Source: an uncultured Bacteroidales bacterium
GTDB taxonomy: Bacteria > Bacteroidota > Bacteroidia > Bacteroidales > FEN-979
Assembly (NCBI GenBank): GCA_903925275.1
Contig: CAIYES010000535.1
Coordinates: 1-43,764 of the forward strand
Length of the DNA: 43,764 nucleotides
Direction: 5' to 3'
The position numbers and the translations under genes were made by a program. Shown one piece after another: positions 13,165 to 40,082 of the stretch. Positions within the stretch are counted from its first letter, which is position 1; each line of letters starts with the position of its first letter. Under the pieces are notes generated by a model. That model made no database searches and was not told where the DNA came from. It saw only the letters and a list, made by a program, of their open reading frames with translations.

Positions 13165-13220
13165 TTAAGTGTTAAGTGTTAAGTGTTAAGTGTTAAGTGT
13201 TAAGTGTTAAGTGTTAAGTG
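13165..13220 (+). repeat. Eight tandem TTAAGTG heptads
   Basis: Eight perfect copies of TTAAGTG run from 13165 to 13220, ending 21 bp before the start codon of the DUF2339 gene. A degenerate stretch of similar composition precedes them from about 13148. Perfect identity of all copies suggests recent slippage, so copy number may vary between cells. Confidence 0.95.
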
Positions 13221-13241
13221 TTACAGTTTTAGAGATACACC

Positions 13242-18474: not shown

Positions 18475-18514
18475 GAAATGGTGAAATGGTGAAATGTTGA
18501 GATGGTGAAATGTT
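18475..18514 (+). repeat. Five tandem octads of the GAAATGGT type at nuoB/nuoC
   Basis: The units read GAAATGGT, GAAATGGT, GAAATGTT, GAGATGGT and GAAATGTT, and a sixth degenerate unit follows to 18522. The array begins immediately at the nuoB stop codon and fills most of the gap to nuoC. A related array, in the opposite orientation, lies at 40051-40082. Confidence 0.85.
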
Positions 18515-18532
18515 GAAAATTTGCAGAGAGAG

Positions 18533-19027: not shown

Positions 19028-19030
19028 GCA

Positions 19031-19140
19031 GAGCCGCATCGCAATGCGGCTCCAAGGAAAGAGCCGCATCGCAATGCGGCTCCAAGGAAAAAGCCGCATC
19101 GCGATGCGGCTCCTGCCATGGAAGCGCATCGCGATATGCC
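19031..19140 (+). repeat. Tandem 30-bp palindromic repeats at nuoC/nuoD
   Basis: Three 30-bp units start at 19031, 19061 and 19091, and a fourth degenerate unit starts at 19121. Each contains GAGCCGCAT and its inverted partner ATGCGGCTC around a CGCA or CGCG centre, followed by a TCCAAGGAAA-type linker. Each unit can form a stable 9-bp hairpin in the mRNA. The array fills most of the 133-nt gap between nuoC and nuoD. Confidence 0.95.
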
Positions 19141-25071: not shown

Positions 25072-25572
25072 ATGTTTTCGCACTACATCTTCTATTTCCT
25101 CAGCATCATGGCGCTCTTTTCGGCGGTTATGATGCTGGTGTCGAAAAAACCGATCCATTCGGTACTGTTTTTGACGCTGACCTTTTTTGCCATTGCCGGC
25201 CATTATGTGCTGCTGAATGCGCAATTCCTGGCTGTTGTCCATGTCATCGTTTATGCCGGTGCCATCATGGTGCTGTTCCTTTTTACCGTGATGCTGCTGA
25301 ACCTCAACAACGACGAACGTTCGCCGAAGCCCATCTGGGTCAAAGTCATTGCATTTTTGGCCGGATGCATGCTATTGCTAACACTGATCGGTGTTTTTCG
25401 CGGATATGATATCCAATCAGCCCATGATCCCATGACAACGCAAATCGGATTGGTAAAGAGCCTGGGCAGGATACTCTATCACGATTATCTCATCCCGTTT
25501 GAGTTGTCGTCGGTTTTGTTCCTCACAGCCATGGTCGGGGCGGTTTTACTGGGGAAGAAGGAGCAGATTTAA
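25072..25572 (+). CDS. nuoJ: NADH-quinone oxidoreductase subunit J
   Basis: NuoJ is a small membrane subunit of the proton-pumping arm. I place the start at ATG 25072, giving MFSHYIFYFLSIMALFSAVMM and 166 residues; an upstream in-frame start at 24973 lies within nuoI and is unlikely. Five hydrophobic segments are visible. The VIVYAGAIMVLFLFTVMLLNL stretch in the third segment is characteristic, with a pi-bulge region. The stop codon is followed within 5 nt by a long heptad array, which separates nuoJ from nuoK. Confidence 0.95.
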   Translation: MFSHYIFYFLSIMALFSAVMMLVSKKPIHSVLFLTLTFFAIAGHYVLLNAQFLAVVHVIVYAGAIMVLFLFTVMLLNLNNDERSPKPIWVKVIAFLAGCMLLLTLIGVFRGYDIQSAHDPMTTQIGLVKSLGRILYHDYLIPFELSSVLFLTAMVGAVLLGKKEQI

Positions 25573-25576
25573 AAAT

Positions 25577-25772
25577 GAATATCGAACACTGAATATCGAA
25601 CACTGAATATCGAACACTGAATATCGAACACTGAATATTGAATGCTGAATATTGAATGCTGAATATTGAATATCGAACACTGAACACTGAATATCGAATG
25701 CTGAATATTGAATATCGAACACTGAACACTGAATATCGAATACTGAATATTGAATGATGAATATCGAATGAT
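25577..25772 (+). repeat. Left heptad array: 28 GAANNNN units
   Basis: The 196 bp divide exactly into 28 units of 7 bp, each starting GAA. Common forms are GAATATC, GAACACT, GAATATT and GAATGCT. The first eight heptads are four copies of GAATATC-GAACACT; later units are mixed. The last unit, GAATGAT, contains the start codon of the four-helix-bundle gene. The units are reverse complements of those in the right array at 26142-26288. Confidence 0.97.
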
Positions 25773-26145
25773 GGACGAAGAAAAAAAATTTGACCTGGAA
25801 GACCGGCTTATTAAATTCGCCGTTATGGTAGCCAATTTAACTGAAACATTGCCGGAAACGATGTTTGGACGATATATCAGTGGCCAGATAGTCCGGTCAG
25901 GCTGTTCACCAGCTTTGAATTACGGAGAAGCGCAAAGCGCTGAGTCCCTGAATGATTTTATTCATAAAATGAAGATTTGCCTGAAGGAATTAAGGGAAAC
26001 CCTGGTATCATTAAAGATTATACAACTAAAATTATTGAGTACCAGAGCAGACCTGTTGTCTACAGCCCTGCAAGAGTGTAATGAATTGATTTCAATATTT
26101 GTTAAAAGCATACAAACTTCCGAAAAAAGGAAGCTAACCAAATAA
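25768..26145 (+). CDS. Four-helix-bundle protein (S23/IVS family)
   Basis: The protein has 125 residues from ATG 25768 (124 from the ATG at 25771) and matches the four-helix-bundle family first known from ORFs in 23S rRNA intervening sequences. Signature stretches are FDLEDRLIKFA near the N-terminus, GQIVRSGCSPALNYGEAQSAES in the middle, and KMKICLKELRETL followed by LQECNELISIFVKSI. All helices look intact, so it is probably functional. The family also includes the accessory protein Avd of diversity-generating retroelements, but no such element is visible here. Its biochemical role is unknown. It has no ribosome-binding site other than the purine-rich repeat, and it must share the nuo transcript unless a promoter hides in the array. 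Confidence 0.9.
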   Translation: MMDEEKKFDLEDRLIKFAVMVANLTETLPETMFGRYISGQIVRSGCSPALNYGEAQSAESLNDFIHKMKICLKELRETLVSLKIIQLKLLSTRADLLSTALQECNELISIFVKSIQTSEKRKLTK

Positions 26146-26288
26146 TTCGATATTCCTTATTCGGTGTTCGATATTTAGTGTTCGATATTCGATATTTAGT
26201 GTTCGATATTCAATATTTAGTGTTCGATATTCAATATTCAGTATTCGATATTCGATATTCGATATTCAGTGTTCGATATTCTATATTC
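26142..26288 (+). repeat. Right heptad array: 21 NNNNTTC units, inverted relative to left array
   Basis: The 147 bp divide into 21 units of 7 bp ending in TTC or, in three cases, TTT. Common forms are GATATTC, AGTGTTC and AATATTC, the reverse complements of GAATATC, GAACACT and GAATATT. The first unit, ATAATTC, contains the stop codon of the four-helix-bundle gene. The array ends 16 nt before nuoK. Confidence 0.97.
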
Positions 26289-26304
26289 ATAAAACGTATA
26301 GTAA

Positions 26305-26622
26305 ATGATCACCTTAACAGCAATTCCGGTCCACTACTACCTCTTATTCTGCTCGATACTGTTCTGCATTGGGGTCATCGGGGTGCTGATTAAAAGGAAT
26401 GCCTTGTTAATCCTCATGTCTATTGAACTGATGATCAACTCGATCAACCTTTTGCTGGCAGCATTTTCAGCCTATTCCAACGATCCGGCGGGACAGATCT
26501 TTGTGTTTTTCATCATGGTGGTAGCCGCCGCAGAAGTGGCCATCGGACTGGCGATTGTGGTGCTGATATACAGGACGACACATTCGATTGATATAAACGT
26601 ATTGAATAAATTGAAATGGTAG
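26305..26622 (+). CDS. nuoK: NADH-quinone oxidoreductase subunit K
   Basis: NuoK is a small, three-helix membrane subunit of complex I. The 105-residue protein has hydrophobic segments at about residues 8-25, 31-52 and 64-86. It keeps the conserved acidic residue of the second helix (LMSIELMINSINLLL) and a second in the third (AAAEVAIGLAIVV), both used in proton transfer. It begins just after the right heptad array and overlaps nuoL by 7 nt. Confidence 0.96.
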   Translation: MITLTAIPVHYYLLFCSILFCIGVIGVLIKRNALLILMSIELMINSINLLLAAFSAYSNDPAGQIFVFFIMVVAAAEVAIGLAIVVLIYRTTHSIDINVLNKLKW

Positions 26623-37662: not shown

Positions 37663-37683
37663 AAAAAAATCCCGACCACAGGC

Positions 37684-38496
37684 ATGAAAAACGCTGCCAC
37701 CCGACATATCCTGAACCGCCTGAGGCGTATCCTGAAAGGCATATTGTTTTCGGCAGGTATCATTGCGATATTTCTGGTTTTGCTTGCATTTACCACAGTT
37801 CCTTTCTGGATCTGGTATGGGATGGGCGTGAAACATGCGGGGATAAAGCGCCCGCCCGGTTGCATCGTGTTGCTCGGCGGCGGCGGAATGCCCAGCGAAA
37901 GTGCTCTGATGCGGTTATGGTACACCGCGCAGGCAGGAAATTACTTCAACAAGGCCGACATCATCATTGCTCTCCCGGGCAATGCCAAAGATTCGCTGAG
38001 TTCCATCAACCTGATGAAAAAGGAGTTGATCCTTCACGGGATCAGCAAAGAAAGGATCTTCCTCGAAGATTCCGGCACAAATACGCGTGCGCAGGCTCTT
38101 CGTGTGCTAAAAATAATATCGAATATTGAACAACGAATATCGAATATCGAACGGAAAAATGTAAAACCTGATTCCGTTCAATATTCAATATTCAATATTC
38201 GAAATTCGCAATTCACTTCAATCCTTATCGTCACGTCCCCCGAGCACATGCTTCGCGCAGTGCTTACTTTTAAAAAGGCAGGGTTCATGAAAGTCGACGG
38301 GCTTCCGGCCTTTGAACAGGCCATTGCTGCCGATATCTCCTTCAATGCCCGTAAACTCGGAGGCCGGATTTTTATTCCCGATGTGGGGAACAGCATCATG
38401 CTGCGATACCAGTTCTGGACCCAGTTGCAGTACGAAATACTGATTTTGAGGGAATATTCGGCCCTGGCATACTATAAGCTATCAGGATGGATCTGA
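37684..38496 (+). CDS. YdcF/SanA-like DUF218 membrane protein with repeat-derived insertion
   Basis: The 270-residue protein has an N-terminal membrane anchor (about residues 18-45) and a DUF218 domain, a Rossmann-like fold linked to envelope functions in SanA. The domain begins with GCIVLLGGGG, and its conserved EDSGTNTRAQALRVLKI leads up to LIVTSPEHMLRAV. Between these two normally close motifs lie about 30 extra residues (starting SNIEQRISNIERKN and ending YSIFNIRNSQF). They are encoded by an inverted heptad repeat at 38114-38214. The frame stays open on both sides, so the protein may still fold with an extended loop. The exact enzymatic role of DUF218 proteins is not established. Confidence 0.82.
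   Translation: MKNAATRHILNRLRRILKGILFSAGIIAIFLVLLAFTTVPFWIWYGMGVKHAGIKRPPGCIVLLGGGGMPSESALMRLWYTAQAGNYFNKADIIIALPGNAKDSLSSINLMKKELILHGISKERIFLEDSGTNTRAQALRVLKIISNIEQRISNIERKNVKPDSVQYSIFNIRNSQFTSILIVTSPEHMLRAVLTFKKAGFMKVDGLPAFEQAIAADISFNARKLGGRIFIPDVGNSIMLRYQFWTQLQYEILILREYSALAYYKLSGWI
38114..38214 (+). repeat. Miniature inverted heptad element inside the DUF218 coding sequence
   Basis: Six heptads (TAATATC, GAATATT, GAACAAC, GAATATC, GAATATC, GAACGGA) at 38114-38155 are followed by 17 nt. Six inverted heptads (TCCGTTC, three AATATTC, GAAATTC, GCAATTC) follow at 38173-38214. The innermost pair, GAACGGA/TCCGTTC, is perfectly complementary. The units are of the same kind as those around the four-helix-bundle gene at 25577-26288. 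The element can form a hairpin of up to 42 bp in the mRNA. Confidence 0.92.
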
Positions 38497-39125: not shown

Positions 39126-39183
39126 GTTTACACGATTAAATAGAAAAAATCACAAAGTCACAACCTAACTCTCCTGCCTCCCT

Positions 39184-39261
39184 TGCATTATTTGCATTAT
39201 TTGCATTTCCTGCATTTCCTGCATTTCCTGCATTCCCTGCATTCCCTGCATTCCCTGCATT
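39184..39261. repeat. Tandem 9-bp array between rplY and pth
   Basis: Eight full units and a partial ninth of the form TGCATTNNN run from 39184 to 39261. There are two of TGCATTATT, three of TGCATTTCC and three of TGCATTCCC, ordered by type. The array directly abuts the T-run side of the rplY terminator. The ordered blocks show stepwise spread of each variant by slippage. Confidence 0.95.
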
Positions 39262-40045: not shown

Positions 40046-40050
40046 GAAGT

Positions 40051-40082
40051 CACGATTTCACCATTTCACGATTTCACCATTT
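40051..40082. repeat. Four GTGAAATS-type octads in the rplY leader
   Basis: On the minus strand the units alternate ATGGTGAA and ATCGTGAA, an 8-bp period over about 32 bp. They are related to the GAAATGGT octads at 18475-18514 at nuoB/nuoC. Confidence 0.8.

Follow-up and report, generated by a model that had tools for sequence, protein, structure and literature searches.

The cassette between nuoJ and nuoK

The window, by which we mean the whole 43,764-nt stretch of DNA analysed, corresponds to contig C535 of the genome of an uncultured Bacteroidales bacterium (5.65 Mb in 574 contigs). Between nuoJ (25072–25572, + strand) and nuoK (26305–26622, + strand), both assigned by profile matches, it carries a gene for a four-helix-bundle (4HB) protein of 124 aa (25771–26145, + strand), which is bracketed by two tandem arrays of heptads. 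The left arm (25577–25769, + strand) is built of GAANNNN units and begins 4 bp after the nuoJ stop codon, and the right arm (26145–26288, - strand), with heptads inverted relative to the left arm, ends 16 bp before the nuoK start. Both arrays were detected by Tandem Repeats Finder. A run finder traced the left array over 25577–25786 with 29 GAA starts in 30 heptads, all in a single 7-bp phase counted from 25577 and the last of them falling beyond the ATG at 25771, while the right array displayed TTC in 18 of 21 heptads (26146–26292), the remaining units starting with TTT or similar when judged by eye. Left-arm variants included GAATATC, GAACACT, GAATATT and GAATGCT, giving a purine-rich gene strand, and GAATATC, GAACACT, GAATACT and GAATATT were common to both arms. 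The left array extends into the ATG and the TAA abuts the right array, as the initial annotation had described; its coordinates for the cassette (25577–26288) were right, and its count of 28 left and 21 right units in constant phase is correct within its definition of a unit. A TTG at 25750 opens a longer alternative frame of the 4HB gene.

That the two arrays are mutually inverted was borne out by the best ungapped pairing of the arms (25612–25758 with 26142–26288), which spans 147 nt with 82% complementarity, and by an arm alignment score of 81–82.5. Folding of the RNA from 25570 to 26304, a check that the initial annotation had proposed, yielded -270.4 kcal/mol compared to -144.7 kcal/mol (sd 4.8) for 20 shuffled sequences (z -26), and the cassette RNA is predicted to form a long stem.

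The encoded protein belongs to TIGR02436 (68.1 bits, cut-off 24), and its only Pfam match was PF05635 (39.1 bits, cut-off 33.8), in agreement with the earlier assignment of a complete gene of the S23/IVS type, i.e. of the S23/IVP family. An AlphaFold2 model of the protein predicted four helices (pLDDT 94) in the S23 fold; the monomer alone was modelled, and the solved relatives are described as pentamers. The ten best structure matches in the PDB were chains of 2rld and 2gsc, the former also being the closest sequence match (E 5.4e-11), and the Avd protein of diversity-generating retroelements (DGRs) followed at rank 13 (4dwl, E 0.16, TM 0.73–0.82), with 8ube also among the matches. The cassette as an element is filed in no known family. 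It contains no IS200/IS605-like tyrosine (HuH) transposase, PF05635 being the sole Pfam match and the fold that of S23/Avd, and no reverse transcriptase adjoins it, its neighbours being NuoJ and NuoK. A search with Rfam found no rRNA anywhere in the window. The reverse transcriptase present in the window is that of a group II intron approximately 24 kb away (124–1943), where Rfam matches at 124–247 and 1869–1943 surround an RVT_1/GIIM ORF at 611–1858.

Inverted flanks of 4HB genes

The initial annotation had suggested that the 4HB genes of a genome should be compared with regard to their flanks. The set used here comprised 121 4HB loci, drawn from the matches listed for the same order and spread over 42 genomes, with loci near contig starts and many weaker matches left out; six of the reading frames contained an internal stop. 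After removal of seven loci at contig ends, 114 were usable (at least 150 bp on each side). The left flank was aligned with the reverse complement of the right flank, and a score of at least 16 was taken as a pass. Inverted flanks were found at 95 of the 114 loci, with units of 7–10 bp, compared to 14 loci with flanks in direct orientation, and 90 loci still passed when the arms were restricted to sequence outside the gene. Only 12 of 586 mismatched flank pairs and none of 137 control positions located 2 kb away reached the threshold, the latter ruling out chance low-complexity flanks. The remaining 19 loci lacked inverted flanks. Most units were 7 bp long and others were 8, 9 or 10 bp, which excludes the heptad as an essential feature. 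On the gene strand the left arm was purine-rich in 78 of 90 loci, purine-poor in seven and even in five.

The source genome displayed ten TIGR02436 matches, of which eight were usable and seven had inverted flanks. The inversion that had been anticipated was present at nearly all of the usable genes, but the units were 7, 8 or 9 bp in length and not heptads alone. One locus failed the test (L017), two were dropped at contig ends (L012 and L018), and L011 had a weak inverted score (18) with a higher score in direct orientation (41).

A leader motif built around GATTAA stood no more than 110 nt from the start codon at 48 of the 114 loci, a figure that is optimistic since the pattern was composed after the leaders had been viewed, and at none of the 114 downstream flanks and 12 of 3762 control windows; the copy in the window lacks it. 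In this conserved leader, ACCTTTT is accompanied by the GATTAA core, which may sit in a small hairpin, and by an A-run right before the ATG. The leader was present in loci of differing unit families (e.g. L071, L133 and L173).

A wider scan, in which an alignment of three sequences was run against named genomes, was limited to the best 80 loci, of which three were dropped at contig ends. Among the 77 usable best-scoring loci, 31 passed the inverted-flank test (6 direct) compared to 5 of 129 control positions, and the passing records included Clostridia, Phyllobacterium, Pseudaminobacter, Desulfobacterales, Geobacter, Pirellulales and Candidatus Viridilinea. Since 46 of the 77 failed, the plan is frequent beyond the home group and yet far from universal.

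Nor is the plan exclusive to 4HB genes. GxxExxY genes, which form a further small family of no clear function, were assessed at 27 of 30 collected loci (L206–L235), one of which was dropped at a contig end, and 18 of the 26 usable loci had inverted flanks (6 direct), with less regular units. Similarly, a YicC-like gene on contig C10 of the source genome (L243, 3159–4467) lies between two nested mirrored arrays, with an AGGCAAT array, a T-run and a TTGCATTGT array on one side and the inverted copy on the other. In relatives, the position after yicC held different array families or none. These cases rule out 4HB genes as the sole passengers of mirrored arrays.

Coupling of the repeat unit to the protein subfamily

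The units differ between 4HB subfamilies, three of which carry GAATATC, AATGCAGAC and GACAAGT, respectively. When 85 intact 4HB proteins with arms were compared pairwise, the unit was shared by 24 of 26 pairs with at least 70% protein identity, by 32 of 91 pairs at 55–70%, by 13 of 435 at 45–55% and by 3 of 3018 at lower identity (Mantel r 0.47 between unit and protein; 0 of 5000 permutations). The relationship persisted among pairs without a homologous neighbour, where the corresponding numbers were 13 of 14, 23 of 75, 7 of 409 and, below 45% identity, 3 of 2983, and the unit would therefore appear to accompany the protein across unrelated sites. Inheritance of the site as the sole cause of shared units was rejected, as 51 of 76 unit-sharing pairs had no homologous neighbour common to both. 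The coupling links two questions, namely the role of the S23/IVP four-helix-bundle proteins, described as without known function (PMC4990558), and the way in which short tandem arrays spread among prokaryotic genomes, for which the accounts in PMC6749651 and PMC4679880 give no known mechanism.

Copies, gene-less arrays and their abundance

Two pairs of copies within the source genome were alike from array to array, the second as far as its contig reaches. The copies on C129 and C430 were 91.7% identical over 530 columns, with both limits of similarity inside the arrays. Those on C143 and C393 showed 87.6% identity across 573 columns, a stretch that opens near the left array and is cut off where contig C393 stops. 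In several cross-genome pairs at unrelated sites the similarity likewise stopped in the arrays; many other homologous pairs stopped at or inside the gene.

Arrays also occur without a gene. A hairpin of the cassette's own heptad family lies at 38116–38222 (no strand assigned), in frame within a DUF218 ORF (37681–38496). Across the 23 rows compared, the stretch between conserved anchors varied in length, which was a multiple of 3 in every row, and frequently carried arrays of other families. In 27 contig pieces (243 kb) picked irrespective of content, 27 arrays were found, 26 of which were similar to arm units from one or another 4HB locus; 20 resembled an arm unit of the source genome, compared to 16% for permuted units. 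Adjacent arrays in 34 source-genome pieces were convergent in 9 of 12 pairs, tandem in three and divergent in none, and the convergent neighbours included pairs of different families. In the source-genome pieces, arrays abutting a stop codon had the purine strand as sense in 22 of 26 cases, with neighbour strands taken from longest open frames rather than gene calls. Array pairs of the same family that enclosed a 4HB gene within 1 kb were inverted in 46 cases and direct in 5, as opposed to 23 inverted and 31 direct among same-family pairs not around a 4HB gene (gap below 3 kb).

The abundance of two array families was compared with the presence of the cognate gene in 19 genomes. G000, G005 and G004, the three genomes whose cognate gene is intact, ranked highest of the 19 for AATGCARRC triplets, with counts of 436, 235 and 32, respectively; five in which the cognate is broken or partial had 6–23 and the other eleven had 0–29, seven of them at 0 (p 0.0035, with kinship ignored and G000 and G005 close in the nuo tree). 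For GAAYAYY, the array family of the window, the tie was weak (p 0.06, kinship ignored), with 76, 42, 6 and 4 triplets in the four genomes where the gene is intact and 23 and 17 in G009 and G001, both without a close homologue. A simple tie of 4HB gene number to array density was unsupported. Among the matches listed, G059 had no 4HB match and no arrays in 158 kb sampled, G010 one match and no arrays in 75 kb, and G036 22 matches and 10 arrays in 108 kb; G019, however, had 22 matches and a single array in 154 kb.

The nuoJ–nuoK site in relatives

Comparison of this junction between related genomes had been proposed by the initial annotation, and the occupied, broken and gene-less states were all encountered. 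The junction was recovered from 17 of 19 genomes of the genus searched. An intact 4HB gene with arrays on both sides was present in four (the window copy, L082, L085 and L094), which means that every intact orthologue has arrays, and a broken copy or remnant in three (L087, L089 and L090). L081 held a GxxExxY gene, the match containing a stop, and L095 another insert. The remaining eight junctions were gene-less, some keeping a few heptads and one (L093) having another short array. In all, the 4HB copy was decayed or absent in 13 of the 17 genomes.

The nuo tree intermixes occupied, broken and empty states, with partly weak support, and is compatible with an old gain followed by repeated loss, without proving it. 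For the intact genes, dN/dS was 0.044–0.086 in three of six pairs, the other three being saturated, and the corresponding values for NuoK were 0.024–0.057 in all six pairs. These ratios indicate that the 4HB gene is under purifying selection where it is intact. Homologues of the window subfamily with at least 75% identity were found solely at nuoJ–nuoK in the 19 genomes, and no mobility of this subfamily was seen.

A candidate bipartite repeat element and its alternatives

The genome comparison shows a plan of array, gene and array, a coupling of unit and protein, copies that run from array to array and dispersed gene-less forms; it also shows, for a single family, the greatest array abundance where the gene is intact, a likeness of the arms within a locus and the presence, decay and absence of the nuoJ–nuoK copy. 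The best reading of these features is a REP/RAYT-like, bipartite element with a 4HB protein. Specifically, we put the probability at roughly 0.6 that the nuoJ–nuoK cassette represents, in full length, a selfish repeat element of bipartite make-up whose 4HB protein acts on the array unit.

The initial annotation had instead compared the cassette with the intervening sequences of 23S rRNA. The arms would then form a stem cut by RNase III, the insert would leave the transcript, and nuoA–J would be parted from nuoK–N. Such excision has been reported for S23-encoding 23S rRNA IVSs in Coxiella (PMC4990558), the long stem predicted for the cassette RNA (z -26) would suit it, and 46 of 90 elements point the same way as both neighbours, compared to 21 opposed to both. 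The arms themselves argue against it. Selection on RNA pairing should favour G.U over A.C mispairs, but the two types were nearly equal on the gene strand (141 and 146, respectively, over 90 loci), which makes RNA excision unlikely as the main function, excludes RNA pairing as the force that preserves the likeness of the arms and fits homogenisation at the DNA level. Consistent with such homogenisation, arms within a locus were more similar than orthologous same-side arms in 16 of 19 pairs, in which loci were reused. Furthermore, the strands of the neighbours, approximate since they derive from longest open frames rather than gene calls, were ++ in 46, -- in 21, +- in 19 and -+ in 4 cases relative to the 4HB gene, so that 44 of the 90 elements differ in direction from at least one neighbour and read-through from the neighbours is unnecessary, though the ++ class is the largest. 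Dispersed arrays without an inverted partner also occur, and an insert between genes leaves no gene product in need of rescue by excision. What remains of the IVS-like plan is thus the self-contained element, the S23 protein family and the complementary ends, while processing at the RNA level is not supported as the reason for the plan, and we regard an RNA element of this kind as improbable.

It is also conceivable that other machinery spreads the arrays and hairpins, and that the 4HB and GxxExxY genes enter or ride in the loops of convergent pairs on which they are inactive. Mirrored arrays around GxxExxY genes (18 of 26) and around a single yicC gene speak for such passengers, as do the convergence of neighbouring gene-less arrays in the source genome (9 of 12 pairs), also between families, the abundance of some families in genomes without a close cognate and the paucity of arrays in G019 despite its many 4HB genes. 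It agrees less well with inversion of same-family arrays being specific to 4HB surroundings (46:5 compared to 23:31 elsewhere) and with the tight coupling of unit and protein subfamily at unrelated sites, although the coupling is not decisive, as passengers travelling with their arms would produce it as well. Overall, we consider inactive passengers unlikely. A function for the host, with the arrays as regulatory or structural elements at 3' ends and the 4HB proteins as host binding proteins, would account for the strand preference of stop-abutting arrays (22 of 26), for convergent adjacent pairs and for the low dN/dS of the intact nuoJ–nuoK genes (0.044–0.086 in the three computable pairs of six). 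The array family after yicC nevertheless differs or is missing between genomes, and the nuoJ–nuoK copy has decayed or is absent in 13 of 17; we regard a host role as very improbable.

For the selfish bipartite element, we infer the biochemical steps as follows. The cassette is closed off on both sides by a short unit repeated in inverted arrays, and its single gene encodes an S23/Avd-type four-helix-bundle protein. This protein may bind its own unit, or a hairpin built from it, and may help DNA bearing the unit to be copied into further intergenic sites, possibly by host replication or repair enzymes or by a reverse transcriptase acting in trans, as for Avd in DGRs. The likeness of the arms would be maintained through hairpin-templated copying of DNA, and the within-locus similarity is consistent with this. 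The copy in the nuo operon looks like old cargo whose surviving gene is still under selection, and any cutting of the RNA stem would be incidental. Several observations count against a mobile element: the confinement of the window subfamily to nuoJ–nuoK, the mirrored arrays around genes other than 4HB genes, the 19 of 114 loci without inverted flanks, the many homologous pairs whose similarity ends at or inside the gene rather than in the arrays, the GAAYAYY arrays of G009 and G001 without a close homologue and the array-poor G019. No catalytic domain or excision product was found for the cassette, and no target-site duplication was noted at the gene-less sites, which were viewed by eye only.

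Among known systems, the cassette appears to work like REP/RAYT, which it resembles in layout, coupling and gene-less relatives, with an unrelated protein. In REP/RAYT and REPINs, as described in PMC2817692, a gene likewise lies between two inverted repeats that track its subfamily, and dispersed gene-less repeats occur with an abundance tied to the gene; of the two families compared here, one was most abundant where its gene is intact, with kinship ignored. RAYTs are, however, IS200/IS605-like tyrosine transposases flanked by single palindromes, whereas the cassette has tandem arrays and a four-helix bundle for which no nuclease site is known. The S23-encoding rRNA IVS of Coxiella shares with the cassette an S23-family ORF between stem-forming ends and a patchy presence (PMC4990558). 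The cassette differs in lying between protein genes, in having ends made of subfamily-specific arrays of 7–10 bp units, in its dispersed gene-less relatives and in arms without a sign of selection on RNA pairing. Avd of DGRs (PMC10053308; 4dwl and 8ube) has the same fold, but a DGR would have a reverse transcriptase beside it, unlike the cassette. Prokaryotic satellites and heptamer arrays are likewise dispersed and short, some being found in Bacteroidetes, and the descriptions in PMC6749651 and PMC4679880 mention neither a tie to 4HB genes nor an inverted plan. Searches of an open-licence library, viewed mostly as listings and passages, listed no paper that links 4HB genes with inverted tandem arrays.

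The gene-specific repeat words hint at an undescribed route for the spread of short repeats in bacterial genomes. It is tempting to propose a new class of bacterial mobile elements, bounded by inverted arrays of short tandem repeats and present in several phyla, in which each 4HB subfamily recognises its own 7–10 bp unit and spreads both cassettes and gene-less arrays, a generalisation to which we would give somewhat less than even odds. If it were true, the S23-encoding rRNA IVSs would be the rRNA-resident members of the class, and many of the bacterial satellites that lack an explanation would descend from it as non-autonomous forms. Genes for 23S_rRNA_IVP have been reported in cas loci (PMC3936711) or as CRISPR-associated (PMC10910872); arrays such as those of the cassette could be mistaken for CRISPRs, which, as a guess, may bear on those reports.

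Other repeats in the window

Further short arrays were observed elsewhere in the window. Those at 18475–18518 and 40050–40082 are composed of GAAATGGT / TCACCATT units, the former sitting between the genes for the 20-kDa and 30-kDa subunits of complex I; similar arrays at L242 (1225–1275) and L258 (15738–15772) gave no match above 0.3 to a 4HB arm. A TTAAGTG array (13165–13223) directly precedes a DUF2339 gene and a TGCATT nonamer array lies at 39183–39261, the units of both matching 4HB arms of other genomes. Finally, almost three copies of a 30-bp unit containing a palindrome were found between two complex I genes at 19030–19113.
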